In this document: positions 10,003 to 32,505 of the stretch, in pieces
How the letters are laid out: every line of letters begins with the position of its first letter
Position numbering within the stretch: the stretch's first letter is position 1
Assembly (NCBI GenBank): GCA_007126655.1
Contig: SLAV01000080.1
Span: forward strand, 1 to 38,804
Source: Haloferula sp.
GTDB taxonomy: Bacteria > Verrucomicrobiota > Verrucomicrobiia > Verrucomicrobiales > Akkermansiaceae
Length of the DNA: 38,804 nucleotides
Direction: 5' to 3'
The notes under the pieces: generated by a model
Seen by the model: the letters and a program-made list of their open reading frames with translations, nothing else
What the model was told of the DNA's origin: nothing
Database searches by the model: none
Program-made: the position numbers and the translations under genes

Positions 10003-10007
10003 GAGAA

Positions 10008-11138
<1,131 letters not shown>

Positions 11139-11229
11139 GTCGGCTTAGTGATGAAAGCGATGCTAGGCCAAGGGGTTGTTTTGTCGAGGGGGGATGCGCG
11201 GATCTGTGTATTTTCCCGTTCGGGAGGCT

Positions 11230-12003: not shown

Positions 12004-12023
12004 GCCGGGCAGCGGCCGGTTTT

Positions 12024-12692
12024 TCAGGCGTTGCGGATCGAGGTGACGGCGGCGGCCATGTCGGGCGCGCGGAATGTCGAGGAACCGGCGACGAGGACGT
12101 TGGCCCCGGCGGCGGCGCAGGAGGCGGCGGTGGCGGCGTCGATGCCGCCGTCAACCTCGATGTGCCATTCGCCGCCGGTTTCGTCGCGCAGGGCGGCGGC
12201 GGCGCGGATTTTCGGCAGCACCTCGTCCATGAACGCCTGGCCGCCGAAGCCGGGGACCACGGTCATGCAGAGCAGCAGGTCGATGGCGTCGAGGTGGGGT
12301 TTCACGGTTTCGAGCGAAGTGGCGGGGTTGATGGCGAGGCCCGCCTGGCAGCCCGCCGCGCGAATGCGGCGCAGGGTTGCGGCGACGTCGTGTTCGGCCT
12401 CGACGTGGACGGTGACGAGGTCCGATCCGGCGGCGATGAAGCGGTCGAGATAATGGTCGGGCCGCGAGATCATGAGGTGGACGTCGAGGAAGATGTCGTT
12501 GGTTTCGTGGACGGCCTGGACCATGGCGGGACCGAACGAGATGTTGTCCACGAAATGGCCGTCCATGACGTCGAGGTGGAGCCAGTCGGCCCCTGCGCGG
12601 ATGGCGCGGGAGACTTCTTCGCCGACGCGGGAGAAATCGGCGGCGAGCAGCGATGGGGCGACCACGCGGTCGCGGCAGGTCTTGGGAATCAC
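12024..12692 (-). CDS. rpe: Ribulose-phosphate 3-epimerase
   Basis: A 222-residue TIM-barrel enzyme interconverting ribulose 5-phosphate and xylulose 5-phosphate in the pentose phosphate pathway. Signatures are APSLLAADFS at the N-terminus, HLDVMDGHFVDNISFGP, DVHLMI, MTVVPGFGGQAF and VDGGI near the C-terminus, covering the metal-binding and catalytic loops. No ATG lies at a fitting position; the GTG at 12692 gives a start eleven residues before APSLL and the normal family length, so I prefer it. The frame stays open far upstream, but that part shows no family similarity and includes antisense EF-G sequence. It is the first gene of the rpe-proB pair. Confidence 0.9.
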   Translation of the reverse strand: MIPKTCRDRVVAPSLLAADFSRVGEEVSRAIRAGADWLHLDVMDGHFVDNISFGPAMVQAVHETNDIFLDVHLMISRPDHYLDRFIAAGSDLVTVHVEAEHDVAATLRRIRAAGCQAGLAINPATSLETVKPHLDAIDLLLCMTVVPGFGGQAFMDEVLPKIRAAAALRDETGGEWHIEVDGGIDAATAASCAAAGANVLVAGSSTFRAPDMAAAVTSIRNA

Positions 12693-12743
12693 GGGGGGAT
12701 TCCAGAGGAATCGGAGGGGCAGGGGAAGGCGGAAATGTAACGC

Positions 12744-12896
12744 ATGCCGGACCCTCCCGGGCGCGGCCCCCGGGGGAATCCCGGGAAAAGATTCACATCG
12801 CCGCACGGCATCACGTTCGACGGCGATGGCAACCTGCATGTGATGGGCTGGAACGCGACCGGGCGCGTCAGCAAGCTGGTGCGCGTGGCGGATTGA
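12744..12896 (+). pseudogene. Remnant of an NHL/SMP-30-type beta-propeller protein
   Basis: In the 334-base space between rpe and EF-G an open frame of 50 codons ends at a TGA (12894-12896). Its last 33 residues, starting at 12792, read like the final blade of a beta-propeller protein: SPHGITFDGDGNLHV, then MGWNATGRVSKLVRVAD. The preceding 16 codons (Pro/Arg/Gly-rich) have no such character, and a TAA closes the frame at 12738-12740. I read it as the surviving 3' tail of a deleted gene. A short independent gene is the less likely alternative. The rest of the space holds nothing I recognise. Confidence 0.5.
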
Positions 12897-13026
12897 GCCG
12901 GGGGGGCGTGCCATCCGGCGCGTCGAAAAAGGCAAACTCCGGGATTGCCAATTCGCGCGATCCGTATAGAAGCGCGCCCGCGCGTTTTTTGTGCGCGCGC
13001 CAACACCGACCCGAACCCCACCTGGA

Positions 13027-15117
13027 ATGAAGGACCTCACCAAATACCGCAACATCGGCATTTTCGCCCACGTCGATGCAGGCAAGACGACCACCACCGA
13101 ACGCATCCTCAAGCTAACCGGAAAAATCCACAAGCTCGGCGAGGTCCACGACGGCGAATCCACCATGGACTTCATGGACCAGGAGGCCGAGCGCGGCATC
13201 ACGATCCAGTCCGCCGCGACCAGTTGCTTCTGGAAGGACCACCAGTTCAACGTGATCGACACGCCGGGGCACGTGGACTTCACCATCGAGGTGTACCGTT
13301 CGCTCAAGGTGCTCGACGGCGGCGTCGGCGTGTTCTGCGGGTCCGGCGGGGTGGAGCCGCAATCCGAGACGAACTGGCGCTACGCGAACGACTCGAAGGT
13401 CGCGCGGATCATCTACGTGAACAAGCTCGACCGGATCGGCGCGGATTTCTACCGCGTCGTCGGGCAGGTGAAGCGGGTGCTCGGCGCGCATCCGCTGGTG
13501 ATGGTGCTGCCGATCGGCACCGAGTCGGACTTCAAGGGTGTGGTGGACCTGCTGACGATGAAAGCCCACATCTGGGACGACACCGGCCAGCCGGAAAACT
13601 TCACGGTCGGGGAGATTCCCGCCGACATGGTGGACAAGGCGAATGAATACCGCGCCGCGATGGTGGAAAGCGCCGTCGAGCAGGACGACGAGGTGATGGA
13701 GGCCTACCTCGAGGGCAACGAGCCGGACATCGAAACGATCAAGCGCTGCATCCGCAAGGGCACCATCGATTTGGCGTTTTTCCCTACGTATTGCGGTTCG
13801 TCGTTCAAGAACAAGGGGCTCCAGCCGATTCTCGACGCGGTGGTGGATTTCCTGCCCTCGCCGCTGGAAGTGAAGCCGCTGCCGGAAGTGGACGCCGAAG
13901 GCAACGAGACCGGAGAATTCGCCACGGCGGATTCCTCCAAGCCGCTGCGCGCGCTCGCCTTCAAGATCATGGATGACAAGTATGGCGCGCTCACCTTCAC
14001 CCGCATCTACTCGGGCACGCTCAAAAAGGGCGGGACGGTTCTCAACTCGTTCACCGGCAAGACCGAGCGGGTCTCGCGCATGGTCGAGATGCATGCCGAC
14101 GACCGCAACGAAATCGACACCGCCCAGGCCGGCGACATCGTTGCCATCGTGGGTCTCAAGAATGTCCAGACCGGCCACACGCTGTGCGACGAGAAGAACC
14201 CGGCCACCCTGGAACCAATGGTTTTCCCCGACCCCGTGATCTCCATCGCGGTGGCCGCCAGGGACAAGGCGAACGCGGAGAAACTCGCCAATGCCATTGG
14301 CAAGATGGTGGCCGAGGACCCCTCGTTCCGCGTCGAGACCGACGAGGACTCCGGCGAGACCATCCTCAGGGGCATGGGCGAGCTGCACCTCGACATCAAG
14401 ATCGACATTCTCAAGCGCACCCACAAGGTGGAGGTGGAGGTCGGCGCGCCGCAGGTCGCCTACCGCGAAACCATCACCCGGCCGACGTCCGACAGCTACA
14501 CCCACAAGAAGCAGTCCGGCGGCTCCGGCCAGTTCGCGAAGATCGACTACACCATCGAGCCGCTCGAGCCGGGTTCCGGCTTCATGTTCGAGTCCACAGT
14601 GGTCGGCGGCAACGTGCCGAAGGAATTCATCCCCGCCGTCGAGAAGGGCTTTAGGGTCTCGACCGACCGCGGCCCGCTGGCGGGTTACCCGTGCCTCGAC
14701 TTCAAGGTGACGCTCACCGACGGCGGCTTCCACGCGGTGGACTCCTCGGCGATCGCCTTCGAGATCGCCGCCAAGGCGGCCTACCGCCAGACGATGCCCA
14801 AGGCTGGCCCGCAGATCCTCGAGCCGATGATGAAGCTCGACGTCTTCACTCCTGAGGAGAAGGTCGGCGACGTGATCGGCGACCTCAACCGCCGTCGCGG
14901 CATGATCCAGGGCCAGGAACCGACACCCGGCGGCGTGCGCGTGAAGGCGGAGGCCCCGCTGTCCGCGATGTTCGGTTACATCGGCGACCTGCGCACGATG
15001 ACGTCCGGCCGCGGCCAGTTCTCGATGGAGTTCTCGCACTACGCGCCGTGCCCGAAAAACGTGTCCGAAGAGGTGATCGCCGCCGCGAAGGCACGGGAAG
15101 AGGCGCTCAACAAGTGA
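13027..15117 (+). CDS. fusA: Translation elongation factor G
   Basis: A 696-residue GTPase that drives translocation on the ribosome. GTPase motifs are in order: G1 AHVDAGKT (residues 12-19), G2 RGITI, G3 DTPGH and G4 NKLD. Domains II to V follow through [15 protein letters not shown]-like [10 protein letters not shown], and the C-terminal [12 protein letters not shown]. The gene stands alone, without rpsL, rpsG or tuf, and reads [15 protein letters not shown] where classical EF-G has AVGGVQPQSETVW. This resembles the second EF-G type (EF-G2/spdEFG-like) that many bacteria carry as a paralogue; that subclass call is inference. The ATG at 13027 is preferred over one at 12991 because the conserved N-terminus ([13 protein letters not shown]) begins right after it. 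fusA is used as the family name only. Confidence 0.93.
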
Positions 15118-15147
15118 TCGAAGGCGTCGGATACGGGTGACGCGGGA

Positions 15148-15252
15148 GGTCGGAGCGGACGTCATCCGACCGGAATGCCAACCTTCGCGCGAGGGCGCGC
15201 GAAGGAACACGCGGGGGCGCGTGTGGTCCCCCTTGCCCGCACCCGTGGGGTG
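15148..15252. repeat. Four consecutive GC-rich hairpins after EF-G
   Basis: Four perfect inverted repeats sit between the convergent EF-G and DUF1501 stops: GGTCGGA/TCCGACC at 15148-15171 (10-base loop), CCTTCGCGCG-AGGG-CGCGCGAAGG at 15182-15205, ACACGCG-GGGG-CGCGTGT at 15207-15224 and CACCC-GTG-GGGTG at 15240-15252. No T-run follows any of them. They may act as a bidirectional transcription barrier or belong to a REP-like element. The pairing is seen directly; the role is inference. Confidence 0.55.
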
Positions 15253-15362: not shown

Positions 15363-16838
<1,476 letters not shown>

Positions 16839-16870
16839 GGTGATGAGAGGTCTTAATTAAGATGTATCGG

Positions 16871-16907
16871 CGTCCATTCTCCTCATTCTCACGAATGGGC
16901 CTACATT
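16871..16907. repeat. Second copy of REP-like repeat
   Basis: This 37-base stretch matches 6991-7027 with the same internal spacing: CGTCCA, seven variable bases, CATTCTCACG, one variable base, then ATGGGCCT and a variable tail. The core of 24 bases agrees at 21 positions. It contains a CATTC-TCAC-GAATG hairpin at 16884-16897. It lies between the PSD1 stop and the DUF1501 start on the minus strand, so it may separate or modulate expression of the two genes. Confidence 0.6.
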
Positions 16908-16912
16908 TGCTT

Positions 16913-19840
16913 TCAGCGGTTCAGGGCGTGGTCCGAGTTGAGGAGGGTGTTGGCGACGAGGATGAGGGCGGCGCGCTCCGGGGTGCCGTCGTCGGCGAGG
17001 GCGGCGGCCTCGTCCGGGGCTGCGCGGTAGTCAGCGAGGGCGTCGCTGTGGAGATCGACGAGGATGCCGAGGATTTCGGGTTCGGGCGGGCGCAGGGTGA
17101 GCATGCGGTAGCCGTGGACCAGCCGGGTTTCCGGGTCGTCGCCGGCGTCGGCCATGCGGGTGGCGAAGGCGGCGGCGAATTCGATGTGGGCGGGGTCGTT
17201 GAGGGTGACGAGCGCCTGGAGCGGCGTGTTGGTCGTCTGGCGCTGTTCGGTGCAGAGGTCGCGGTCGGGCGCGTCGAAGGTGAGCAGGCCGGGGTGTCCG
17301 GCGGTGCGCTTGTGGTAGGTGTAGATGGCTCGGCGGAAGCGGTCCGGGCCTTCGGAGATGTTCCATGTCGCGCCGCTGTAAACAGAGTTCCACACGCCGT
17401 CGGGCTGGGGCGGGAAGACGGGCGGGCCGCCGAGTTCGGGATGCATCAGGCCGGAGAGGGCGAGGCCCTGGTCGCGCACCATTTCGGCGGTGAGCCGCTG
17501 GCGCGGGCCGCGTGCGAGCAGGCGGTTGTGGGGATCGATTTCGAGCAGGTTGGCCGGGATGCGGTTGCTCTGGCGGTAGGTCGAGGAGAGCACGATCTCG
17601 CGGAGGAACGGCTTGATGTGCCATTGGTGGTGCTCGCGCAGGCGGATGGCGAGGAAATCGAGTAGTTCAGGGTGCGACGGCAGCGCGCCGGAGCTGCCGA
17701 AGTCGCCGAGCGTCTCGACAATGCCGATGCCGAACATTTCGGCCCAGAGGCGGTTGGCGAGGACGCGGGCGGAGGTCGGGTTTTTTTCGCTGGTGAGCCA
17801 GCGCGCCATGTCGAGCCGGGATTCTGCCTGTTCCGGGCGGCCGAAGATTTCCGGGATGTTCGGCTCCACGACTTCGTCGAGGGTGGTGCGGTTGCCGCGG
17901 ATGAAGACGCGCGTCTCGCGGGTAGCAGCCTCCGGGCGCTCGCGCATCACCGGGATGGTGAGGCCGTCGATGGAGTTGTAGCGGCTTTGCAGCGAGGCGT
18001 GGTGCTGCCATGCCCCGGCGCGCTCCGGATCCGCGAGGGCTTCGGCGAGGCGCGGGTCGGCGGTGGTTTCGACGCGGAAGCGGCGCAGCACGGTGTTCTG
18101 GTGGTTGCCGTTGCAGCGCGCGCCGTGGCCGAGCGTGAGTTCGAGGGTTTCGCCGGGTTGCGGCACGGCGGGTTCCTCGGGGACGAACCAGGCGGTGCGC
18201 GGGGCCTTCATCATCGGGAACTCGCCGAATCCGCGCGCATTGCCGCGCAGCGTGTCCTGCGGGTCGAACGGGCCGGTGATGTAATCGGCGACGACTTCGC
18301 GCACGCGGATTTCGCGGCGTTCGCCTTCTGGCGAGACGAAGTGCGCTTGGAAATTCGTGACCACCGCGCCGCGCTCGTCCCAGTGGGCGGGGTCGTCGTT
18401 GAGGGGCAGGATTTCGAGCTTGATCGCGGCGATGTCGGCGGCCGGGCCGCGCAGGGTGAAGACGCTGCTGTCCGGCGTGGTTCCAGAGGAGAGGATGTCG
18501 CCGTCGTCGCGCTGGTCGAGCCGCCCGGTGTCGGGCGTGATGAAGGCCTCGGTGGGGCGGAAGAGCGACCATCCGTCGAGCGAAACGGCGGTTTCGCGGG
18601 CCTGGTCGTTGATTTCGTTGCGGTAGGAAACGAGCGCCTGTTCGAGTTTCACGGCCTCGGCCTGGAGTTCGGGGTCGGCGGCGACCTTGGTGCGCGGGAA
18701 GTCGCTGTCGATGTCCACGTCCTCGGTGTTGTTGAAGAAGGCGAGGAACTCGAAATAGGCTTTGTGGGGGATGGGGTCGTACGGGTGGTCGTGGCACTGC
18801 ACGCAGCCGATGGTCATGGCGTTCCAGGCGGTCCACGTGGTGTTGGTGCGGTCGATCACGGCCTCCATGCGGTATTCCTCGTCGTCGGTGCCGCCCTCGG
18901 TGTTGTTCTGGGTGTTGCGGTGGAAGGCGGTGGCGATCAGGTCGCGCGGGTCGGGATCGTCGAGCAGGTCGCCGGCGATCTGGCGCACAGTGAAGTCGTC
19001 GTATGGCATGTCCGCGTTGAAGGCATCGACGACCCAGTCGCGGTATGGCCAGATGTCGCGGTGCGGGTCTTTCTCGAATCCGAACGTGTCGGAGTATCGC
19101 GCGAGGTCGAGCCACATGGTGGCCCAGCGCTTGCCGAATGCGGGCGAGGCGAGCAGGCGGTCGGCCACCTCCTCGCGGGCGCGCCGGGGATCCCGGGCGT
19201 GGGCGGCGGTGAAGGCGTCGTATTCCTCCAGGGTGGGCGGCAGTCCGGTCAGGTCGAAGGTGGCGCGGCGCAGCCATTCGGCGGGGCCGGCCTCGGAGGA
19301 CGGGGCGAGATCCTCGCCGTCGAGCCGGGCGAGAATGAAATGGTCGAGCGGCGCGGCGGGCCACGAAGGGTCGGAGATTTCAGGGAGATCGGGCTTCTCC
19401 GGCGGCTGGAACGCCCAGTGCTCCATCCACTCCGCGCCCTCGCTGATCCAGCGGGTGAGGATCTCGATTTTCTCGTCGGCGAGCGGATCGGGGTGATGGT
19501 CGGGCGGAGGCATGCGCACGGCGTCCTCATTGGTCATGATGCGGGCGATCATCTCGGATTTCTCCGGATGGCCGGGCACGGCGACGGGCAGGCCGGAGTC
19601 CCCCTCGCCGAGCACGTCCTCGCGGTAGAGGAAGGAGACACCGCCCGCACGCATCACGCCACCGTGGCAGGTGGTGCAGTTTTTCGTGAGGATGGGCCGG
19701 ACGTCGCGATTGAAATCAATCGGCGATTCCGCGGCGGCCATGCCGGCGAGGTGAACGGGCAGGGCGAGCAGGAAGAGGTATTGTAGCAGGGTCTGCACGA
19801 TGAAACGGATACGAAGCACAAAATGGATTGTATCGTGCAT
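16913..19840 (-). CDS. PSD1-type cytochrome protein (DUF1549/DUF1553), first copy
   Basis: A 975-residue exported protein of the planctomycete-type PSD1 family. A signal-like hydrophobic segment spans about residues 12-36. A c-type heme motif CTTCH (residues 55-59) lies in the N-terminal cytochrome domain, then DUF1549 (from about 150, HWAFQPPEKP onward), a second CVQCH motif at 346-350, and DUF1553 in the last third (from about 670, ARWLTSEKNPTSARVLANRLW, to the conserved TNTPLQALVTLNDP). Function is unproven; genomic association in PVC bacteria links the family to polysaccharide use. The ATG at 19840 is chosen for the signal sequence; an upstream in-frame ATG at 19882 is possible. It precedes the DUF1501 gene by 74 bases. 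Confidence 0.88.
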   Translation of the reverse strand: MHDTIHFVLRIRFIVQTLLQYLFLLALPVHLAGMAAAESPIDFNRDVRPILTKNCTTCHGGVMRAGGVSFLYREDVLGEGDSGLPVAVPGHPEKSEMIARIMTNEDAVRMPPPDHHPDPLADEKIEILTRWISEGAEWMEHWAFQPPEKPDLPEISDPSWPAAPLDHFILARLDGEDLAPSSEAGPAEWLRRATFDLTGLPPTLEEYDAFTAAHARDPRRAREEVADRLLASPAFGKRWATMWLDLARYSDTFGFEKDPHRDIWPYRDWVVDAFNADMPYDDFTVRQIAGDLLDDPDPRDLIATAFHRNTQNNTEGGTDDEEYRMEAVIDRTNTTWTAWNAMTIGCVQCHDHPYDPIPHKAYFEFLAFFNNTEDVDIDSDFPRTKVAADPELQAEAVKLEQALVSYRNEINDQARETAVSLDGWSLFRPTEAFITPDTGRLDQRDDGDILSSGTTPDSSVFTLRGPAADIAAIKLEILPLNDDPAHWDERGAVVTNFQAHFVSPEGERREIRVREVVADYITGPFDPQDTLRGNARGFGEFPMMKAPRTAWFVPEEPAVPQPGETLELTLGHGARCNGNHQNTVLRRFRVETTADPRLAEALADPERAGAWQHHASLQSRYNSIDGLTIPVMRERPEAATRETRVFIRGNRTTLDEVVEPNIPEIFGRPEQAESRLDMARWLTSEKNPTSARVLANRLWAEMFGIGIVETLGDFGSSGALPSHPELLDFLAIRLREHHQWHIKPFLREIVLSSTYRQSNRIPANLLEIDPHNRLLARGPRQRLTAEMVRDQGLALSGLMHPELGGPPVFPPQPDGVWNSVYSGATWNISEGPDRFRRAIYTYHKRTAGHPGLLTFDAPDRDLCTEQRQTTNTPLQALVTLNDPAHIEFAAAFATRMADAGDDPETRLVHGYRMLTLRPPEPEILGILVDLHSDALADYRAAPDEAAALADDGTPERAALILVANTLLNSDHALNR

Positions 19841-19958
19841 GATAGCGGCTCTGGTCGGTCCCGCAAGATCGATGTCTGTCATCCGTTGTCCGTGGAATAG
19901 CGTCGTGTTTTTGTTTGGCAACCAATGGATCGCAAGAGCAATACCCGACAATCGCTAT

Positions 19959-21113: not shown

Positions 21114-22358
21114 TCAGGCCGGGATTCCGCCATCACTGTGCCGTGCCGCGGGGCGGCGGGTGTTTTCCACGACGATTTTGATTCCTTCCTGGCGCAGATT
21201 GGTGGCGAAGGCTTCTTGGATTCGATCGAGCGGGAAGCGATGGGTGATGAGTTTCGTGATCGGCAGGCCGATGCGTTCCGCGCGTTGGAGGAAATGGTAG
21301 GCGTTCGGATATTCCCAGCTGTTGTAGGCCCACGAGCCAACGAGGGTGATTTCCTTTTTGCAGAAATCCTCGTGGGGGTTGACCTGGGAGAGGCCGTTTT
21401 CGACGAAGAAGCCGACCTCGCAGACGCCGCCGCCGCGACGCACGAGTTTGAAAATCGTGGAGGCGGCCTGTGGCACGCCGGTGACGGAGAATGCGAAATG
21501 CGCGCCCATGCCCTTGGTGACGTGGAGCACTTCGTCGGCGAGACTTTCCGCGGACGGGAAGTTGCGGAAGTTGATGGTTTGGTCCGCACCAAGCTGGCGG
21601 GCGAGTGCGAGGCGGGCGTCGCTGCCGTCGATCGCGATGATGTTGTTGACTCCGGCGGTGCGCAGGATGGCGACCAGCATGAGGCCGATCGGCCCGCATC
21701 CCTGGACGACGACGCGGCTGCGGAAATTGATGTGGCCGGTGGCGCGCGCGCGTTCCAGCGCGTGCGCGGCAACGGCCGCGGGCTCGATGAGAACGCGCAG
21801 ATCGATGCTCATGTCGTTGACGACGAAAAACGACGATCCCGGACGGATGATGAGCCATTCACCGAAGTAGCCGTTGAAGTGGTTGTCCGGCTCGTCCGGG
21901 AGCAGGCCGTAGATGCGGAGGTCATCGCAGAGGTTGGCCTTGGCCGGGTTGTATTTCGCGATCATGCAGGCATCGCTGGTTTCGAGCGTGCTGGTTACGA
22001 TCTTGTCGCCCGGGCGCACCGGTTTCCCCACGCTGTCCATGGTGACCGCGGGGCCGACCATAACGACTTCGCCGGTTCCCTCGTGTCCGAGCACCACCGG
22101 GATCAGACCGAACGGGTCTTTCTTGTAGCAGTGGATGTCCGTGCCGCAGATGCCGCAGGCCTCGACGCGGACGAGGATCTCATCCGGCCGGATTTCCCGC
22201 AGCGGGAACTCGCGGAATTCGAGATTTTCCCGTGCGGTGAGAACCGCGGCGCGCCCGGTCGCCGGGATCGCCGGCCTTTGCGGGTGACTGGCGGGAGCGG
22301 GGGAGAGTTGTTGCGCCAATACGTCGCGGACGATGCGTTCGATGTCGGAGGATTGCAT
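21114..22358 (-). CDS. Zinc-dependent alcohol dehydrogenase with N-terminal targeting-like helix
   Basis: A 414-residue medium-chain dehydrogenase. Catalytic zinc residues are Cys71 (CGICGTD) and His92-Glu93 (GHEGTGEV); the Rossmann nucleotide loop is VVQGCGPIGLMLVA. The four-Cys structural zinc lobe of classical enzymes is not seen: only Cys131 and Cys144 fall in that region. Before the catalytic fold there is an 18-residue amphipathic helix and a Pro/Ala linker, resembling the encapsulation peptides of microcompartment enzymes. The ATG at 22358 starts exactly at this helix; upstream frame is not protein-like. The gene follows DUF1501 by 83 bases and ends the PfkB-PSD1-DUF1501-ADH run. Substrate is unknown; an alcohol or aldehyde from deoxysugar breakdown is a guess. 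Confidence 0.87.
   Translation of the reverse strand: MQSSDIERIVRDVLAQQLSPAPASHPQRPAIPATGRAAVLTARENLEFREFPLREIRPDEILVRVEACGICGTDIHCYKKDPFGLIPVVLGHEGTGEVVMVGPAVTMDSVGKPVRPGDKIVTSTLETSDACMIAKYNPAKANLCDDLRIYGLLPDEPDNHFNGYFGEWLIIRPGSSFFVVNDMSIDLRVLIEPAAVAAHALERARATGHINFRSRVVVQGCGPIGLMLVAILRTAGVNNIIAIDGSDARLALARQLGADQTINFRNFPSAESLADEVLHVTKGMGAHFAFSVTGVPQAASTIFKLVRRGGGVCEVGFFVENGLSQVNPHEDFCKKEITLVGSWAYNSWEYPNAYHFLQRAERIGLPITKLITHRFPLDRIQEAFATNLRQEGIKIVVENTRRPAARHSDGGIPA
22305..22358 (-). other. Putative microcompartment encapsulation peptide
   Basis: Residues 1-18 of the alcohol dehydrogenase read MQSSDIERIVRDVLAQQL, an amphipathic helix with Ile/Val/Leu spaced every three to four residues, then a Pro/Ala-rich linker (SPAPASHPQRPAIPATG). 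Encapsulation peptides of PduP, PduD and related enzymes share this plan (short polar start, I/E-x-x-V/I-x-x-V/I-L, flexible linker). No shell protein gene is in this window, so targeting is inference. Confidence 0.45.
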
Positions 22359-22441: not shown

Positions 22442-23968
22442 TCAGGCGAAGAGCTTGTCCACGACGTATGCGGGTTCGACGCCGGTAAGGCGTTGGTCGA
22501 GCCCTTGGAACCGGTAGGTGAGCCGGGTGTGGTCAATGCCGAGGAGATGGAGGATGGTGGCGTTGAGGTCGCGGATGTGCATGGGATCCTTGACGATGTT
22601 GTAGGAGAAATCGTCGGTTTCGCCGTAGGTCATGCCGGGATTCACGCCGCCGCCCGCCATCCACATGGAGAAGCAGCGGGGGTGGTGGTCGCGTCCGTAG
22701 TTGTCGGGGCGCAGGCGGCCCTGGGAATAGACGGTGCGGCCAAATTCACCGCCCCAGACGACCAGTGTGTCGTCGAGCAGGCCGCGTTGTTTGAGGTCGG
22801 CGATGAGCGCGGCGGACGGCTGGTCGATGTCGTCGCAGAGGGTGCGCATGCGGTTCGGCAGGTCGCCGTGGGTGTCCCAGCCGCGGTGGAAGACCTGGGT
22901 GAAGCGGACGCCGCGCTCGGCGAGGCGTCGCGCCATGAGGCAGTTGTATGCGAAGGTGCCTTCTTCCTTCGCCTTGGGGCCGTACATGAGCCAGGTGGAT
23001 TCCGGCTCGTCGGAGAGGTTGGTGAGTTCGGGCACCGACGTCTGGAGGCGGAAGGCCATTTCGTATTGGGCGATGCGGGCGTTGGTTTCGGGATCGCCGA
23101 TGCGGTCGTGGAGGTTGCGGTTGATCTCGGCGACGCCGTCGATCATTTCGCGCCGCAGTTTCGACGGGACGCCTTTCGGATTGGAGAGATGGAGGACCGG
23201 ATCGCCGCCGGAGCGGAGGGCGACGCCGGCGTGCTCGGGCGACATGAATCCGGATGACCAAAGGCGGGATGAGAGCGCCTGGATGTTCTGGAAGACGGTG
23301 AGTTTCGATGTGAGGACGACGAACGCGGGCAGGTCGTCGTTCATGGAGCCGAGGCCGTATGAGATCCACGAGCCGATGGACGGGCGGCCGCCGACCATGT
23401 TGCCCGAGTTCATGAGGAGGATGGCGGGCTCGTGGTTGATGGCATCCGTGTGGAGCGATCGGATGACGGCGAGTTCGTCGGCGACTTTGGCGGTATGCGG
23501 GAGCAGTTCGCTCACCCAGTGTCCCGCCTTGCCGTGTTGTTTGAATTTGAAATACGAGGGGGCGATCGGGAAGCGGGCCTGGTTGGCCGTCATGCCGGTG
23601 AGGAGTTGTCCGCCGCGGACGGATTCGGGCAGATCCTCGTCGTAATAGTCGGCGAGTCCGGGTTTGGGGTCCCAGGTTTCGAACTGGGAGGGTGCGCCGG
23701 CCATGAAGAGATAGATTGCGCGCTTGGCCTTGGGAGCGAAGTGCGGATTGAGCGAGGGCGCGGCTTGGGCGGAGGAAACCGCCTCGCGGCCCATCAGCCC
23801 GGCGAGGCCGGCCCACGCGAGGGCCTTGCCGCCGCGGGTGAGGAACTGGCGCCGGGTGGCGAGCGTGAGCCATTCGCGTTTGAGCGAGTCCGGCACGGGG
23901 AGTCCGAGGACTTGCGGGTTCTCACCGCATTGGTCGGAGCAAAGGTGGCGCATCGGGTCGTGGTTCAT
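22442..23968 (-). CDS. Tat-exported DUF1501 protein (second copy)
   Basis: A 508-residue DUF1501 protein paralogous to the one at 15363-16838. The N-terminus has a Cys-containing leader (MRHLCSDQCGENPQ) and then a twin-arginine signal near residue 39 (TRRQFLTRGGKALAWAG). Family motifs include YLFMAGAPSQFETWDPKPGL, the HRGWDTHGDLP segment, GGEFGRT and NYGRDHHPRCFSMWMAGGG, ending ILHLLGIDHTRLTYRFQGLD. The two copies differ throughout, so this is an old paralogue rather than a recent duplication. It is 64 bases after the PSD1 stop and 83 bases before the dehydrogenase, all on the minus strand. The biochemical role of the family is not established. Confidence 0.9.
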   Translation of the reverse strand: MNHDPMRHLCSDQCGENPQVLGLPVPDSLKREWLTLATRRQFLTRGGKALAWAGLAGLMGREAVSSAQAAPSLNPHFAPKAKRAIYLFMAGAPSQFETWDPKPGLADYYDEDLPESVRGGQLLTGMTANQARFPIAPSYFKFKQHGKAGHWVSELLPHTAKVADELAVIRSLHTDAINHEPAILLMNSGNMVGGRPSIGSWISYGLGSMNDDLPAFVVLTSKLTVFQNIQALSSRLWSSGFMSPEHAGVALRSGGDPVLHLSNPKGVPSKLRREMIDGVAEINRNLHDRIGDPETNARIAQYEMAFRLQTSVPELTNLSDEPESTWLMYGPKAKEEGTFAYNCLMARRLAERGVRFTQVFHRGWDTHGDLPNRMRTLCDDIDQPSAALIADLKQRGLLDDTLVVWGGEFGRTVYSQGRLRPDNYGRDHHPRCFSMWMAGGGVNPGMTYGETDDFSYNIVKDPMHIRDLNATILHLLGIDHTRLTYRFQGLDQRLTGVEPAYVVDKLFA

Positions 23969-24032
23969 GGCTTTCGGGATTTTTTAATGGTGCATGCTTG
24001 CGCGGCTTTTTCCAGTCAGACTTGCTTTTGGA

Positions 24033-27000
24033 TCATTTCACGAGTGCTTCATCGAGATTGAGGACGAGGTTGGCGACCATCGTCCATGTGGCGGCTTCGA
24101 CGGGGTGGACATCCGGGTTCGGCGGGTGCGCGCCGGTGGTGAGGGCGGCCTTGGCGTCGTCCGGATTTTCCTGGTAATGGTTTTTGAAGGTTTCGAGACG
24201 CCGGTTGAGTGTTTCGATCTCGGAGGCGTCGAACTCGCGTGCGAGGACGTTTCGGGCCATGAAGTGGAAGCGGTCCCCGGGGGATTCGGCGTATTGGATG
24301 GCGCGGTCGGCCAGCAGCCGGGCGGCCTCGAAGAACTGGGGGTCGTTCATGGTAACGAGGGCCTGCAGCGGGGTGTTGGTGCGGGCGCGGCCGACGCAGA
24401 CAACCTCGCGGGCTTCGGCGTCGAATGTTTCGAGCGAAGGCGGCGGGGCGAAGCGTTTCCAGAAGGTATAGACGGAGCGGCGGTAGAGGCCCTCGCCCTC
24501 GTCGGCCTCGTATTTCCTGGTGTCGGACTCGGGCATGGAGACGGCCTCCCAGATGCCGTCGGGCTGGTAGGGTTTGGCGGGCGGGCCGCCGACGCGGTCC
24601 ACGAGCAGGCCGGCCGCCTGGAGGGCGGTGTCGCGCAGCATTTCGGCGTCCATGCGGAAGCGCGGGGCGCGGGAGAGCATGTGGTTGAAGGGGTCGGCGG
24701 CGAGGGCGTCTTCGGTGACTTGTTGTGATTGGCGGTAGGTGTGTGAGGAGAGCATGAGGCGGTAGATGTGGCGGAGGTCCCAGCCGGATTCGCGGAATTC
24801 GACGGCGAGCCAGTCGAGCAGTTCCGGGTGGGTCGGGCGGCCGCCCATGATGCCGAGGTCGTCGGGGGTATCGACGATGGCGGAGCCGAAGACCTCCTGC
24901 CAGATGCGGTTGACGGTGACGCGTGCGAAGAGCGGGTGGTCGTCGCGGAACAGCCAGTCGGCGAGGTCGAGGCGGTTGCGGTCGGGATGGTCGGGCAGGG
25001 GAGGGAGGATGGCGGGCGTGCCGGGGCCGACGAGTTTCTCGCGGTTGCCGAATTCGCCGCGACCGAGCGTCCAGGCGAACGAGGGTTCGGGGCGGCGCTG
25101 TGCGATGAGGGTGGGTGTGCCGTCCTTGCCGAGCTGGTTGATTTCGCGGTCGAGCCGCTCGATTTCGCGGCGCATTCCGGCGGCCTCCTCGTCGTGGTGT
25201 TCGAGGAAGAACCGGTCGATGGCGAAGTGGCGCTGCCACGCGTCCCATGTGGCGGGGTCGGGTGATTCGGCGACGAGCTCGGCGGCATATTGCTCAAAGG
25301 GAAGCGTGGCAAACTCGCGCCCGTCGAGCGCGCGGCGGAACAGGCGCACGTCCTGGAGTGCGACCTCGCTGATGCGGTTGCCGCCGTGGCGGGAGCCGAG
25401 GGTGAGCGGGAGGTCGTTGCGGATGGTGAGTCCGTCGGCAAGGGTGTCGTGGGTGACCTTGGTTTCGCGGGGTTCGCCGTTGATGTAGAGGGTGACGCCT
25501 TCCGCGGTGCCGGAGCCGTCGTAGCTGAGGCCGACATGCACCCAGTCGCGCCGGTTGATGCCGCCGGCCTCGACGCGGATGGCTTTTTCCGGCCATTCGT
25601 GGATCAGGTGGGCGATGAGCTTGTTGCCCTGGATGGCGAGATCCCAGCCGCGCAGGTCGTTCTCGCCGCCGCCGAGGCGGGCGATGTATGATCCGTTGCC
25701 GATGGGGTTGCCTCCGATATTGGTGCGCTGGCGCGCCCAGAGCGCGACGGAGAAAGCTTCGTCGGCCTCGAAATCGCCGTGATCGGGGATGTGGAAATCG
25801 CTGCGGATGTCCATGCGGGCGGACGGGTGCAGCCAGACGTATTCGCCCCAGACGGGCGGGTTGGTTTCGATTTTCCACTCGCCGGGGCCGGAGGATTCGG
25901 GGGCGCGGTTGCGGACAATGTCGCCGCTTCCCTCGTCGAGCGGCAGGTGCAGTTCGAGGGCGTCGGTGGAGACGGAGTGCGGGGCGTGGCCCTCCTCGAG
26001 CCACGCGGCGAAGCGCTCGTGGGCGCGGGCGCGCAGGGCGTCGTATCCGGCGATCACCTTGGAGCGTGCGGCGACCGCCTCGTCCAGACGCGCGCGTTTT
26101 CCGCTGTCGTCGGGCAGGCGGAGCACCGGGGCTGGATCCTTGCGGTTCTGGTCGCCGGCGATTTCGGCGGTGTTGTGGAAGAAGGCCGCGAGTTCGTAGA
26201 ACTCGTCCATCGAGACGGGGTCGAACTTGTGATCGTGGCAGGCGGCGCAGCCCACCGTGAGGCCGAGGAATGTCTGGCCGAAAGCCTCGGTGCGGTCGCG
26301 GGTGTTCTCGGCGTGGACCTCCTCGACGATGGTGCCGCCCTCGTTTGTTGTCACGTTGCTGCGGATGTAGCCGGTGGCGATCAGGGCATCGGCATCGGGC
26401 GCGGGCATGATGTCCCCGGCAACCTGCTCGCGGACGAATTCGTCGTAGGGTTTGTTGGCCGCGAACGAGCGGATGACGTAGTCGCGGTATGGCCAGATCG
26501 AACGGTAGTTGTCGAAGTGTAGACCGTGGGTGTCGGCATAGCGGACGTAGTCGAGCCAGTAGCGGGTGCGGTGCTCGGCGTATGCGGTGGTCTCGAAGAG
26601 CGAGTCGAGGAACGCCTGGTAGGCCTCGTCGGACGGGTCGGCGGCGAACGCCTCGACGTCATCGGGATCGGGCAGCAGGCCGGTGAGGTCGAGCGAAGCG
26701 CGGCGGGCCAGCGCGCGGGGGTCGCCGGGCGGCATCGGGGCGAGGCCGGCTTTGTCGAGTTCCGCCTGGATGAAGTGGTCGATGGGGTTTTTGACGAGTT
26801 CCGGGTGGGCCGGCTCGGGATGTTCCGGGCGTTCCGGCGGCAGGAATGCCCAGTGGTCCTCGTATTCCGCACCCTCCTCGATCCAGCGGACCAGCAGCTC
26901 GATGGCCTCTTCAGGCATGTCCTTGTGGGCCTCGGGCGGGGGCATCATTTCATTTGGATCGCGCGAACGCATGAGGCGGACGGCGAGCGAGTTTTCCGGG

Positions 27001-27323
27001 TCGCCGGGGATGATGACCGGTTTGCCATCATCACGCGGGGCAAGGGCGTATTCCTCGATGTCGAGACGGAGCGGGTTGTTGGCCGGCTTGCGGGTTCCGG
27101 CGTCAGGACCGTGGCAGTGGTAGCAATATTCGGAGAGCACCGGCTGGACGTCGGTATTGAAGGAGAGCCTTTCAATGTGGCTGACGAGTTCCAAGTCGTC
27201 ATCACCGGCGAGCGGTTCCACGGCATCGTCAGCTTCAGAGACGACCACTTCCTCGCGCTGGCACGAAACCACGAAATATGCGGCAAGCGCGAGGATGATG
27301 GGTCGTTTCCAATTTTTCATCAT
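24033..27323 (-). CDS. PSD1-type cytochrome lipoprotein with LamG-like domain
   Basis: A 1096-residue exported protein. A lipoprotein signal ends VVSC (Cys21). Heme motif CYHCH lies at 67-71, DUF1549 follows from about residue 150, and a second CAACH motif is at 359-363. A beta-sandwich LamG/concanavalin-like domain (about 455-668, from LHLPLDEGSGD to DVRLFRRALDGREF) is inserted before DUF1553 (about 770-1070, DLADWLFRDDHPLFARVTVNRIW to TNTPLQALVTMNDP). LamG domains often bind carbohydrate, so this copy may attach to a glycan at the cell surface; that is inference. Two adjacent ATGs at 27323 and 27320 begin it; the frame upstream is only an antisense shadow of the kinase gene. DUF1501 follows at 64 bases. 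Confidence 0.88.
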   Translation of the reverse strand: MMKNWKRPIILALAAYFVVSCQREEVVVSEADDAVEPLAGDDDLELVSHIERLSFNTDVQPVLSEYCYHCHGPDAGTRKPANNPLRLDIEEYALAPRDDGKPVIIPGDPENSLAVRLMRSRDPNEMMPPPEAHKDMPEEAIELLVRWIEEGAEYEDHWAFLPPERPEHPEPAHPELVKNPIDHFIQAELDKAGLAPMPPGDPRALARRASLDLTGLLPDPDDVEAFAADPSDEAYQAFLDSLFETTAYAEHRTRYWLDYVRYADTHGLHFDNYRSIWPYRDYVIRSFAANKPYDEFVREQVAGDIMPAPDADALIATGYIRSNVTTNEGGTIVEEVHAENTRDRTEAFGQTFLGLTVGCAACHDHKFDPVSMDEFYELAAFFHNTAEIAGDQNRKDPAPVLRLPDDSGKRARLDEAVAARSKVIAGYDALRARAHERFAAWLEEGHAPHSVSTDALELHLPLDEGSGDIVRNRAPESSGPGEWKIETNPPVWGEYVWLHPSARMDIRSDFHIPDHGDFEADEAFSVALWARQRTNIGGNPIGNGSYIARLGGGENDLRGWDLAIQGNKLIAHLIHEWPEKAIRVEAGGINRRDWVHVGLSYDGSGTAEGVTLYINGEPRETKVTHDTLADGLTIRNDLPLTLGSRHGGNRISEVALQDVRLFRRALDGREFATLPFEQYAAELVAESPDPATWDAWQRHFAIDRFFLEHHDEEAAGMRREIERLDREINQLGKDGTPTLIAQRRPEPSFAWTLGRGEFGNREKLVGPGTPAILPPLPDHPDRNRLDLADWLFRDDHPLFARVTVNRIWQEVFGSAIVDTPDDLGIMGGRPTHPELLDWLAVEFRESGWDLRHIYRLMLSSHTYRQSQQVTEDALAADPFNHMLSRAPRFRMDAEMLRDTALQAAGLLVDRVGGPPAKPYQPDGIWEAVSMPESDTRKYEADEGEGLYRRSVYTFWKRFAPPPSLETFDAEAREVVCVGRARTNTPLQALVTMNDPQFFEAARLLADRAIQYAESPGDRFHFMARNVLAREFDASEIETLNRRLETFKNHYQENPDDAKAALTTGAHPPNPDVHPVEAATWTMVANLVLNLDEALVK

Positions 27324-27488
27324 ATCCAGATAGCAAACCTGGCACTCTTTGCCAAGTATCACACGGGAACGCCCGTTATGGCCGATTCTTTCAGGGGCGT
27401 GGTGGATTTTTCCAAAACGTCGCACGGAACCCGTTTCCGGATTCCGGGGGAGATCCGGCGGACGTTGATTGAGCAGCGGCCTTGACGT

Positions 27489-27534
27489 GCGGGGACAGGA
27501 TATCCCCGCGACGGTCTGGGACAGAATGTCCCAG
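27489..27534. repeat. Tandem pair of related hairpins (REP-like doublet)
   Basis: Two perfect hairpins lie just past the PfkB stop: GCGGGGA-CAGGATA-TCCCCGC at 27489-27509 and CTGGGACA-GAA-TGTCCCAG at 27516-27534. Their cores, GGGACAGGATATCCC and GGGACAGAATGTCCC, agree at 12 of 15 positions, so they look like diverged copies of one unit. Neither is followed by a T-run on either strand. They may attenuate transcription between the kinase and PSD1 genes or protect mRNA ends. Confidence 0.6.
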
Positions 27535-27541
27535 CCACGAG

Positions 27542-28639
27542 TCAGCGCACGACGCGGGCGCCGCCGCCGGCGATTTGTTTTTCGACTTCCTTGCGGGTGG
27601 CCATGGACGTGTCGCCCGGGGTGGTGGAGGCGAGGGCGCCGTGGGCGGCTCCGTATTCGACGGCTTTTTCCGGGTCGTTGAATTCGAGGAATCCGAATTG
27701 CAGGCCGGAGGCGAAAGAATCGCCGCCGCCGACGCGGTCGAGGATTTCGAGTCCGTCGTATTTCCGGCTTTCGTGGAACCTGCCCTCGTGCCAGAGGATC
27801 GCGGACCAGTCGTTGACGGTGGCGGTAATCACGCCGCGCAGGGTGGTGGCGGCGACTTTGAAGTTGGGGAATTCCTTCACGGCGGTCTCGATCATCGCCT
27901 TGAATGCGTCGAGCTGGATGTTGGAGATATTGTGATCCACGCCCTCGACCTCGAAGCCGAGGGAGGCGGTGAAGTCTTCTTCGTTGCCGATCATGACATC
28001 GACGTATTTGGCGATCTCGCGGTTCACTTCGCGGGCCTTGTCGAGTCCGCCGATGGTTTTCCAGAGGGACGGACGGTAGTTGAGGTCGTAGGAGACGATG
28101 GTGCCGTGTTTGTTGGCGGCCTTGACGGCCTCGATGGTGAGTTCGGCGGTGCTTTCGGAGAGTGCGGCGTAGATGCCGCCGGTGTGGAACCAGCGTGCGC
28201 CGAGCTTGCCGAAAATGTGGTCCCAATCCACATCGCCGGGCTTGAGCTTGGAGGCGGCGGTGTTGCCGCGGTCCGGATTGCCGACCGCACCGCGGATGCC
28301 ATACCCGCGCTCGGTGAAGTTGAGGCCGTTGCGGACGGAGCGGCCGATGCCGTCGTCCTCGCGCCACTGGATGAAATCGGTGGCGACGCCGCCCTGCATG
28401 ATGAAGTCCTCGATCAGGTGGCCGACCTCGTTGTCGACGAAGGCGGTGACAACGGCGGTTTTCTGGCCGAAGCATTTGCGGAGTCCGCGCGAGGTATTGT
28501 ATTCGCCGCCACCTTCCCATGCGGCAAACCGGCGGGCGGTGCGGATGCGGCCTTCGCCGGGATCGAGGCGGAGCATCACTTCGCCGAGGGAAATTTGGTC
28601 AAATGCGCATTCGGAACGGGGTTTGATATCGAGGGCCAT
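27542..28639 (-). CDS. PfkB-family sugar kinase, likely 2-keto-3-deoxygluconate kinase
   Basis: A 365-residue ribokinase-fold enzyme. The N-terminal substrate region has GEVMLRL and the glycine-rich WEGGGEYNTSRGL (41-53), and the C-terminal signature DRVGGGDSFASG (301-312) contains the catalytic Asp307 and anion hole. The arrangement best fits KDG kinases, which phosphorylate 2-keto-3-deoxygluconate from uronate, alginate or pectin breakdown, but fructokinase or another sugar specificity is possible. It is the first gene of a minus-strand run ending in the alcohol dehydrogenase; the hairpin doublet lies between it and the PSD1 gene. It diverges from the ROK-family gene across a 432-base space. 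No Shine-Dalgarno is visible before the ATG at 28639. Confidence 0.83.
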   Translation of the reverse strand: MALDIKPRSECAFDQISLGEVMLRLDPGEGRIRTARRFAAWEGGGEYNTSRGLRKCFGQKTAVVTAFVDNEVGHLIEDFIMQGGVATDFIQWREDDGIGRSVRNGLNFTERGYGIRGAVGNPDRGNTAASKLKPGDVDWDHIFGKLGARWFHTGGIYAALSESTAELTIEAVKAANKHGTIVSYDLNYRPSLWKTIGGLDKAREVNREIAKYVDVMIGNEEDFTASLGFEVEGVDHNISNIQLDAFKAMIETAVKEFPNFKVAATTLRGVITATVNDWSAILWHEGRFHESRKYDGLEILDRVGGGDSFASGLQFGFLEFNDPEKAVEYGAAHGALASTTPGDTSMATRKEVEKQIAGGGARVVR

Positions 28640-30743: not shown

Positions 30744-30876
30744 TCAGAAAATGTCTGTCGCGGTGGCCGAAGTCGATTGCACGGGCTAGATCTCCCATCA
30801 CGGGGTGGTGGCGTCCATCCAGGTCGCGCTTGACCGGCTCGTCCTCAGGATCACAGATCATGAAATGATATTGCAT
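30685..30876 (-). CDS. Hypothetical short reading frame upstream of small membrane protein
   Basis: A 63-codon frame starting at ATG 30876 (MQYHFMICDPEDEPVKRDL) and ending inside the start of the frame at 30381-30743, which it overlaps by 59 bases in a different phase. The text looks protein-like up to about HRDRHFLSGD, after which the other frame takes over with SSGPQPWEFAQNPSDW. A single gene with one frameshift would explain both. No family is recognised, and it may be fortuitous. Confidence 0.22.
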   Translation of the reverse strand: MQYHFMICDPEDEPVKRDLDGRHHPVMGDLARAIDFGHRDRHFLSGDSRFLRPSAMGICSKSF

Positions 30877-30904
30877 GATCTCAGGTCGTGTAACAACATT
30901 CCGC

Positions 30905-31399
30905 ATGGCAAGTAACGAATCCGGACACAGACTCCTTTGGGAAACCATTCAACGGCAGGAAAGCTATCCGATTTACCGCCTTACCTACCTGAGCAAGCCA
31001 ACCGAACCCTTCACTGACGCCGATTTTGATGACATCGAAAAAAAATCGATCAAGGCCAACAACGCACGCGACGTGACCGGCCTGCTTATCGTCCAGGATG
31101 AGCGCATTCTCCAGACACTCGAAGGACCAAAACAGAGTGTAATCGAGCTATACGCCAAGATCGAGGCCGATCCACGACACACAATCACCAAGGTGGTCTC
31201 CGAAGTCGAAGATGAGGAACGGCTGCTACTCACCTGGAGCATGGTGGTGCGCGGCACTTCCTGCATTCCACGCGAAGTGTTGGAACAATACTTGCGGATC
31301 TACGACGAAATGCAAAACGCCACCGAACCATACGAAATCACCATCGATCATATCGAACTCTTCAAAACCATCTCCGTTCTGGCCCCCCTGCCGACCTGA
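30905..31399 (+). CDS. BLUF-domain blue-light sensor
   Basis: A 164-residue protein that is essentially one BLUF domain, a flavin-binding blue-light receptor. Compared with AppA the key residues are present: Tyr28 (LTYLSKP), Asn52/Asn53 (KANNARDVTG), Gln70 (ILQTLEGP), Trp111 and Met113 (LTWSM). The EADPRH segment is also typical. The C-terminal 50 residues form a short tail with no output enzyme, so signalling is probably through a protein partner. The ATG at 30905 is used; an in-frame ATG at 30875 would add ten residues. The stop lies 9 bases before the dus start, so a shared transcript is likely. Photoactivity is inferred from conserved residues only. Confidence 0.8.
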   Translation: MASNESGHRLLWETIQRQESYPIYRLTYLSKPTEPFTDADFDDIEKKSIKANNARDVTGLLIVQDERILQTLEGPKQSVIELYAKIEADPRHTITKVVSEVEDEERLLLTWSMVVRGTSCIPREVLEQYLRIYDEMQNATEPYEITIDHIELFKTISVLAPLPT

Positions 31400-31408
31400 T
31401 ATTTTCAA

Positions 31409-32467
31409 ATGCTTTCCGCTTCCATCCACCGCCCCCCGTCCGATACCGACGCCGACATGCTGCCCTGGTTCACCCACAACGCCTTCCCCATCTACCTTGC
31501 CCCCATGGCCGGGGTAACCGACGTTGTGTTCCGTCGCATCTGCAAGGAAATGGGCGCGGACGTCATGGTTACCGAGTTCGTCTCCGCCGAGGGTATTCTC
31601 CAGCGCGACGACCGAACCCGCCGCTACACCGATTTTACTGACGGGCAGCGTCCCGTTGGTGTCCAGCTCTTTGGTGCGGATGGCAGGCGCATGGGCGAGG
31701 CCGCACTGAAAATCATCGATTGGAAACAACCCGACTTCATCGACATCAACTTCGGCTGCCCCGTCAACAAGGTCGTCGCCCGCAACGGCGGCTCATCGCT
31801 TCTCCGGGATTGCCCGCTCCTCGCCAGCGTTGCCTCGGGCGTGGTCGAAAAAGTCGGCGACCGCGTCCCCGTCACCGCGAAAATCCGCATCGGCTGGGAC
31901 CGGAATTCCATCAATGCCGTCGAGGTCGCCAAAACCCTCGTCGATTGCGGCATCCGGGCGATCACCGTCCACGGCCGCACCCGCGCCCAGGGATACGGCG
32001 GCGAGGCGGACTGGGACGTCATCGACGCAGTCGCCCGCGCCGTTTCCGTGCCCGTCGTCGGTAACGGTGACATCGCCACCGGGGCCGACATCGCCCGCCG
32101 CCGCCGCGAGACCGCCGTCTCCGGCGTCATGATCGGCCGCGCCGCCATGCGCAACCCATGGGTCTTCCGTGAGGCCAAGCACTACATCGCCACCGGCCAC
32201 ATCCTCCCCCCCGCTCCTCTGGAGGAACGCTGGGAACTTGTCCTGCGCCACTGTCGCCTCGCCATCGAGAGTGGCCGCTACGGTGGCGAGAATCACACAC
32301 TGACCGCCATGCGCTCACGCCTCATGGCATACTGTAAGGGTTTCCCTGGCGCGCGCGACCTTCGCCAGAAACTCTGCCAAGTCACTTCCCTTGACGATGT
32401 CCGCGAAATCGCTGACTGGTCCATGAATATGGAGCCGGCTGTCGGACTCGAACCGACGGCCTGCTGA
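31409..32467 (+). CDS. tRNA-dihydrouridine synthase
   Basis: A 352-residue FMN-dependent enzyme that reduces uridines in the tRNA D-loop. Motifs are YLAPMAGVTDVVFRR at the N-terminus of the TIM barrel, the catalytic-cysteine loop FGCPVNKVVARNGGSSLL, the HGRTRAQGYGG segment and GNGDIATGADI near the phosphate site. It is closest to the DusB-type group. ATG at 31409 is the first start; ATG at 31457 (MLPWFTHN) also fits the family N-terminus. The last 13 residues (MEPAVGLEPTAC) are not family sequence: they are antisense tRNA-Thr, because the stop lies inside that gene. It lies directly behind the BLUF gene. Confidence 0.9.
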   Translation: MLSASIHRPPSDTDADMLPWFTHNAFPIYLAPMAGVTDVVFRRICKEMGADVMVTEFVSAEGILQRDDRTRRYTDFTDGQRPVGVQLFGADGRRMGEAALKIIDWKQPDFIDINFGCPVNKVVARNGGSSLLRDCPLLASVASGVVEKVGDRVPVTAKIRIGWDRNSINAVEVAKTLVDCGIRAITVHGRTRAQGYGGEADWDVIDAVARAVSVPVVGNGDIATGADIARRRRETAVSGVMIGRAAMRNPWVFREAKHYIATGHILPPAPLEERWELVLRHCRLAIESGRYGGENHTLTAMRSRLMAYCKGFPGARDLRQKLCQVTSLDDVREIADWSMNMEPAVGLEPTAC

Positions 32468-32505
32468 TTACAAATCAGCTGCTCTACCAACTGAGCTAAG
32501 CCGGC
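32430..32505 (-). tRNA. tRNA-Thr (anticodon TGT)
   Basis: On the minus strand the sequence folds into a standard 76-base tRNA with acceptor arms GCCGGCT and AGCCGGC, a D-arm containing AGCTCAGTTGGTAGAGC, anticodon stem GCTGA/TCAGC with loop TTTGTAA (anticodon TGT, reading ACA), and a T-arm with GGTTCGAGTCC. The 3' CCA is encoded (32430-32432). It is convergent with the dihydrouridine synthase gene and overlaps its last 38 bases. Confidence 0.96.

Follow-up and report, generated by a model that had tools for sequence, protein, structure and literature searches.

The alcohol dehydrogenase (ADH) gene in this stretch of Haloferula DNA raises a question: is the product the cargo of a bacterial microcompartment (BMC), as its N-terminus would suggest, when no shell gene lies close to it? 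The sequence-only reading of the window (the whole stretch that was analysed, 38,804 nucleotides) had described a helix, a Pro/Ala linker and only then the dehydrogenase fold. It had proposed that the enzyme could be remote cargo, with its compartment specified by genes at another site, or that the helix binds another partner.

In the window copy, MQSSDIERIVRDVLAQQL stands ahead of the ADH fold and is followed by a Pro/Ala-rich linker. The AlphaFold2 model, which is of moderate quality (mean pLDDT 70.8, pTM 0.74; alignment of 20 sequences), gives the tag block pLDDT values of 78 (residues 1-10) and 63 (residues 11-20), falls below 50 at residues 19-26 and begins the dehydrogenase fold with a strand at residues 34-42. 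Pfam places ADH_N at 58-171 and ADH_zinc_N at 223-358, and for the 60 solved ADH sequences among the matches listed the best-matched stretch begins at least at residue 24, and mostly at least at residue 36. The order of helix, linker and fold is therefore borne out by the model, by Pfam and by the alignment with solved ADHs.

The tagged set consists of 20 orthologues with a readable N-terminus, namely the window copy and 19 others that are 64-85% identical to it, and all of them keep the helix. Their mean pairwise identity is 0.60 at residues 6-14 versus 0.17 at 2-5, 0.15 at 15-18 and 0.19 at 19-33, and V10 of the tag is invariant. The linker between helix and enzyme, 10 to 29 residues long across the orthologues, corresponds to the flexible linker of BMC cargo. 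The predicted helix 3-17 with its conserved island 6-14 corresponds to the terminal amphipathic helix of 15-20 residues, although the hydrophobic moment of the window peptide is not unusual relative to shuffled sequences (p = 0.19; p < 0.05 in 5 of the 20 orthologues). The hydrophobic moment was therefore dropped as proof of an amphipathic helix, and the case is carried by conservation, co-occurrence and gene order. In one further homologue (L041, 2309-2667) the ADH similarity begins abruptly at residue 280, which may reflect a decayed gene or a misassembly; this copy, readable at residues 280-399 only and coming from a MAG without a PF03319 match, was left out of all counts.

The enzyme itself carries ADH_N and ADH_zinc_N in place of PF00465, the iron-type ADH family of PduQ and FucO. 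Its fold has TM0436 and sorbitol, butanediol and threonine dehydrogenases as Foldseek neighbours. TM0436 (1vj0) is the closest solved structure by both sequence and fold, but it is 28-29% identical, aligns from query residue 43 and has a four-cysteine lobe. From knowledge of the MDR family, we take C71, H92, E93 and E192 to be the catalytic zinc shell. The structural zinc cysteines had been reported as missing from the window ADH, and this is correct for two of the four found in TM0436; C131 is invariant in the tagged orthologues, and C144 is mostly kept (replaced in 4/20). The best NCBIfam matches are the models for scyllo-inosose 3-dehydrogenase (IolM, the closest, with 153 bits against a cut-off of 450) and threonine 3-dehydrogenase (TDH; 151.2 against 380 and 140 against 458), all far below the cut-offs, and they do not fix the substrate.

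The neighbours in the window include PfkB (27542-28639), PSD1 and DUF1501 genes, as described earlier. PSD1 and DUF1501 genes of the planctomycete-cytochrome type form two pairs, at 15363-19951 and 22442-28520 (minus strand); a BLUF blue-light sensor gene at 30875-31399 (plus strand) and a tRNA-Thr gene at 32430-32505 (minus strand) were also seen. The ORFs of loci L028-L041 were compared with those of the window for common neighbours, and the ZnuA, DUF1501, PSD1 and PfkB genes were rejected as a clue to the substrate, because this context is not common to those loci. In another locus (L067), the distance between the tagged ADH and a PfkB gene is 4.5 kb.

Shell genes are present elsewhere in the same genome. 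The profile search of the contigs gave five PF00936 domain matches and three PF03319 matches on contigs C306 and C121, all of them off C27, the contig of the ADH; the earlier statement that no shell genes lie nearby thus holds. The search of the genome that had been proposed with it recovered three BMC-P genes, three BMC-H genes and one tandem BMC-T gene. On C306, a class II aldolase, a PduP-type aldehyde dehydrogenase, PduL, an acetate-kinase homologue and both BMC-P and BMC-H genes occur together (Table 1), and by this gene content the locus is of the PVM type (L-fucose/L-rhamnose). Ahead of it lies what is presumably, from its sequence features, a DeoR-like regulator. A second malate/lactate dehydrogenase-like gene (L009 3103-4122, minus strand) was noticed by eye about 3.3 kb before the first gene of the BMC run, and its product and that of the Ldh/Mdh gene at the end of the run have near-identical N-termini. 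BMCs of the PVM type have been described for L-fucose and L-rhamnose (PMC4207490, PMC8217296).

Table 1. Features of the tagged dehydrogenase gene in the window and of the PVM-type locus in the same genome
Feature	Position	Strand	Basis or remark
Zinc MDR alcohol dehydrogenase with predicted N-terminal encapsulation peptide, P0001	21114..22358	-	ORF, 414 aa, Pfam
Predicted encapsulation-peptide helix, residues 3-17	22308..22352	-	AlphaFold2 helix; present in 20/20 aligned orthologues
Conserved peptide core, residues 6-14 (IERIVRDVL)	22317..22343	-	Pairwise identity 0.60
Variable Pro/Ala-rich linker, residues 18-33	22260..22307	-	Length 10-29 residues, identity 0.19; 19-26 pLDDT <50
Dehydrogenase fold, residues 34-398	21165..22259	-	Pfam; TM0436 (1vj0) as top Foldseek match
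Putative catalytic zinc ligands C71, H92, E93	22080..22148	-	E192 at 21783-21785; all four invariant in 20 orthologues
PTAC (PduL type)	C306 (L009) 7426-8106		Pfam
BMC-H	C306 (L009) 8167-8436		Pfam
BMC-H, second	C306 (L009) 8486-8764		PF00936 genome match
Acetate-kinase homologue	C306 (L009) 8813-10075		Pfam
BMC-H, third	C306 (L009) 10120-10425		Pfam
BMC-P	C306 (L009) 10444-10842		Pfam
Aldedh (PduP type)	C306 (L009) 11009-12478		Pfam
BMC-P, second	C306 (L009) 12515-12769		Pfam
BMC-P, third	C306 (L009) 12791-13096		Pfam
Class II aldolase	C306 (L009) 13093-14163		Pfam
Ldh/Mdh	C306 (L009) 14168-15154	+	Pfam; ends BMC gene run

The distribution of the tag follows that of the shell genes. PF03319 was found in 20/20 distinct genomes with a tagged ADH versus 0/36 genomes with the untagged sister clade; as this family alone was profiled across genomes, shell-less here means having no BMC-P match. 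In the sample of the phylum (387 genomes, with a PF03319 base rate of 65/387), 44 genomes had an ADH homologue at E <= 1e-70. Eight of these homologues are tagged and at least 66% identical to the window ADH, and all eight genomes have PF03319. The other 36, 49-56% identical in this search, form the sister clade (48-56% identical), and none of their genomes has it (Fisher's test on 8/0/0/36, 5.6e-9). Counted by genus (6 tagged of 18 genera), the value is 5.4e-5, which softens the problem of relatedness but does not remove it. In the sample of the order (189 genomes), the tagged ADH occurs in 3 genomes, all among the 13 with PF03319, and none of the 11 carriers of an untagged ADH is among the 13. 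Among the genomes behind the named loci, 12/13 have PF03319, the exception being that of the L041 fragment; the L035 copy falls in G109 (identical match) and that of L028 in G149.

Of the 36 untagged N-termini, 35 could be read, with an internal Met taken as the start in L056, L098 and L104, and the tag was found in none; the 36th homologue (G450) is a fragment without an N-terminus. One untagged homologue (L103) has a Lys/Ala-rich N-terminal tail in place of the helix. Two sequences of about 32% identity (G003, G062) served as outgroup and were not counted. Close homologues without the helix would have spoken against targeting, but all 20 readable orthologues keep it, and the helix-free homologues belong to the sister clade, whose genomes have no PF03319 match, which supports the proposal of remote cargo.

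The tagged carriers also include two Planctomycetota (L037, L040), a phylum in which the gene is rare, since in 392 genomes the ADH profile matched the centre genome alone (1/392). Within the phylum sample, the tagged ADH is present in only 8 of the 65 PF03319-bearing genomes and 57 are without a match at that threshold; at most four ADH candidates were scored per genome, so a few tagged copies may be missed in this count. Because of this low frequency, the tagged ADH is accessory and not essential to PVM organelles.

Gene order in relatives also connects the enzyme with the organelle. In four loci (L039, which is Pelagicoccus sp. SDUM812005, L063, L064 and L065), the BMC gene run ends with the tagged ADH, 20-254 bp behind Ldh/Mdh and in the same orientation, and in L039 the gene that follows is on the opposite strand. 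This arrangement was seen in 4/20 orthologues and is not that of the window genome; for the other 16 tagged genes, no shell gene was found alongside. The tagged copies away from BMC-P are on different contigs in G000, G109, G149, G358 and G390 and 3.1 Mb apart on one contig in G301, and for 10 tagged copies no homologue of the shell proteins of the window genome was found within the flank examined, some of these flanks being short. In a quick tree, the four linked copies group as a single clade (SH-aLRT 100) within a set of unlinked ones, and the tagged sequences come together with a support of 87, under the 95 mark. This is most simply read as a single origin of a mostly unlinked tagged enzyme and one later entry into the gene run; the opposite order is also possible.

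These data bear on the proposal that the helix binds another partner or serves oligomerisation while the enzyme stays in the cytosol. The weak amphipathicity of the window peptide, taken alone, and the 16 copies not found beside shell genes would fit it. Against it stand the contrast between tagged and untagged genomes in PF03319, the place of the ADH within the BMC gene run of four genomes, and a similar motif that an unrelated aldolase, whose gene adjoins BMC-T, carries at its C-terminus (see below). We regard this proposal as very unlikely, and another binding partner is not needed as an explanation. The reading as remote cargo is supported because shell genes are present in the genome, the helix is kept in 20/20 orthologues and four orthologues lie in BMC runs, and we consider with high confidence that the window ADH is organelle cargo encoded in trans.

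In favour of the fucose reading, the neighbours selected for typing near tagged copies include alpha-L-fucosidases (L035, L036, L040), sulfatases (L036, L094) and an FGGY kinase (L034); no fucosidase, sulfatase or FGGY kinase was noted among the selected neighbours typed at L029-L033, L037 and L038. Among untagged homologues whose neighbours were typed, that of L092 is preceded at 66 bp by a class II aldolase gene on the same strand, and that of L085 has an alpha-L-fucosidase gene at a distance of about 1.5 kb. In three subdivision-3 MAGs (L029-L031) the tagged ADH is located between homoserine dehydrogenase (Hom) and a threonine synthase-like gene (ThrC), and in an Akkermansiaceae MAG (L028) Hom adjoins it. 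These neighbours do not suggest fucose and are not explained by lactaldehyde as the substrate. They would agree with an enzyme of the threonine pathway, similar to threonine 3-dehydrogenase, that gained its helix for other reasons, and the TDH models are indeed among the best NCBIfam matches. Yet the TDH scores of 151.2 and 140 bits are far below the cut-offs, for which the threonine pathway was rejected as the main reading; no threonine gene was present among the selected neighbours typed at the other tagged copies, and the correlation with shell genes would be left unexplained. We therefore consider a threonine-pathway enzyme extremely improbable.

Similar tags may be present on other proteins of the organelle. 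A 13-column motif made from the ADH tags was scored against 332 mechanical ORFs from the regions retrieved, with 45 residues taken at each terminus; nine of the ORFs are tagged ADHs, and the best score among the other 323 was 12.0. The N-termini of the PduP-type enzymes of L039 (15.3) and L065 (15.8) exceed every one of these 323 ORFs; that of L063 scored 11.1 and that of the window genome 5.6, a value reached by 7/323. The PduL-type protein of the window genome scored 10.6, and the PduL proteins of L039 and L065 gave no motif score, the start of the latter being misplaced. Neither class II aldolase nor Ldh/Mdh termini gave a score that stood out, and Ldh/Mdh of the BMC locus was rejected as tagged cargo, its termini being negative in the window genome and in L063. 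The acetate-kinase (AckA) homologue of L063, which is not expected to be cargo, scored 8.9 at its C-terminus, which is the level of noise.

For a DHDPS-family aldolase, scored at its C-terminus in nine of its eleven loci, the values were 25.4, 20.6, 20.6, 15.0, 14.3, 9.5 (window genome), 7.6, 7.5 and 2.7, five of the nine exceeding all of the 323 other ORFs. On C121 (L010 9413-11885, minus strand), an Amidohydro_2 lactonase-like gene, this aldolase and the tandem BMC-T gene lie side by side, and the aldolase carries a C-terminal encapsulation-like peptide, NVDAIVHAVLQEI. All three genes adjoin in L106, L107 and L109, the aldolase and BMC-T genes in L111, and the lactonase-like and aldolase genes in L108. 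The aldolase was matched in 9 of 35 chosen genomes (30 with PF03319 and 5 without), and all nine have PF03319. By eye, 10/11 copies have a tag-like C-terminus, the exception being the 41% copy L079. This suggests that the module represents a non-phosphorylating entry of fucose and rhamnose into the organelle.

The reaction of the tagged ADH can be considered against the published scheme. Metabolosomes need an alcohol dehydrogenase (AlcDH) for the recycling of NAD+, and in the PVM type this role was assigned to the lactate/malate dehydrogenase as the sole candidate in the locus (PMC4207490). In the PVM scheme, lactaldehyde is partly reduced to 1,2-propanediol and the rest is oxidised (PMC6620236). 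Given this scheme and a recycler assigned by default, the tagged ADH is best read as an L-lactaldehyde reductase. For a role as core metabolosome AlcDH, the window ADH offers its fold and invariant presumed zinc ligands, and NADH-dependent aldehyde reduction itself is predicted. The search of the window genome recovered no FucO/PduQ-like gene; the assembly is 95% complete, so that a gene may have been missed. An iron-type ADH elsewhere was rejected as the recycler, as the sole PF00465 match, at 36.2 bits against a cut-off of 31.3, looks by eye like AroB. The Ldh/Mdh of the BMC locus is also present in this genome in addition to the tagged ADH.

On balance, we favour as probable the reading that the ADH is PVM cargo encoded in trans and recruited by its tag, which catalyses the NADH-dependent conversion of L-lactaldehyde to 1,2-propanediol and thereby returns NAD+. 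From its sequence, its distribution and the gene order in relatives, residues 3-17 would act as an encapsulation peptide that brings the enzyme into the organelle as it assembles. There, the PduP-type aldehyde dehydrogenase would produce NADH, which the zinc MDR ADH would use to reduce L-lactaldehyde, giving NAD+ back to the PduP-type enzyme. Lactaldehyde would thus leave partly as lactyl-phosphate and lactate through the PduL- and AckA-like enzymes and partly as propanediol. Recruitment, substrate, direction and cofactor are all inferred here.

The enzyme might instead be organelle cargo with another reaction. It could supply the aldehyde pool of the organelle by oxidising 1,2-propanediol, another polyol or a secondary alcohol, or its substrate could be a sugar acid from an oxidative route of fucose breakdown. 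Polyol dehydrogenases are among its fold matches (sorbitol, butanediol and threonine dehydrogenases), the organelle seems to have an extra entry route through the lactonase-like gene and the tagged DHDPS aldolase, and the Ldh/Mdh of the locus could balance redox. Nevertheless, the published PVM model centres on lactaldehyde (PMC4207490, PMC6620236), and in four genomes the ADH and the class II aldolase belong to a single gene run; we consider another reaction rather unlikely.

A wider proposal may be made, which we put forward tentatively and hold to be somewhat doubtful: the PVM organelle could be an open platform that unlinked genes join through a similar short tag. At least two modules encoded in trans would then be present here, the zinc ADH closing a private NAD+/NADH loop and the lactonase-like, tagged DHDPS and BMC-T module feeding lactaldehyde by a non-phosphorylating fucose/rhamnose route.

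Several known systems are close to this one. The PVM BMC of the Planctomyces limnophilus type (PMC4207490, PMC8217296, PMC8857213) has the same locus enzymes, and the window genome has three BMC-P and three BMC-H genes of its own; the difference is the extra zinc ADH with an encapsulation peptide (EP) encoded in trans, whereas the published NAD+ recycler is the lactate/malate dehydrogenase (PMC4207490). The GRM5 fucose/rhamnose metabolosome of Clostridium phytofermentans, also a methylpentose organelle, likewise has a zinc-binding dehydrogenase as its predicted core AlcDH (PMC4207490). It differs in its glycyl-radical pathway and in an AlcDH encoded in the locus, and the likeness to the window ADH is one of enzyme type. 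The iron-dependent PduQ/FucO enzymes (PF00465) have a similar proposed role, aldehyde reduction with NADH, but the window ADH belongs to a different superfamily, the MDR zinc type. The remote orthologues with an EP that have been proposed as cargo of the aHO organelle (PMC8217296) represent the same idea of distant cargo recognised by an EP-like N-terminus. The aHO is another organelle type, whereas here the tag correlates with BMC-P across two phyla and in one clade the gene lies in the BMC run.

The general elements were already known: encapsulation peptides, organelles of the PVM type, satellite loci and, as an idea, unlinked cargo that bears an EP (PMC8217296). In the parts of the literature that our search covered, no tagged zinc ADH of PVM organelles outside the locus was found, and an earlier mention is possible. 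In PMC8857213, 1,2-propanediol is part of the pathway figure, which also marks genes located elsewhere in the genomes.

PVM organelles have been tied to the use of fucose and rhamnose by aquatic Verrucomicrobiota (PMC8857213, PMC13174399). For these organelles, the tagged unlinked dehydrogenase is a second testable candidate for NAD+ recycling. Our results suggest that cargo inventories compiled from BMC loci alone are incomplete; if the open-platform proposal is true, surveys based on loci would overlook core organelle enzymes. The two sister clades, one tagged and in genomes with BMC-P, the other untagged and in genomes without it, offer a natural comparison for the transition from a cytosolic enzyme to organelle cargo.
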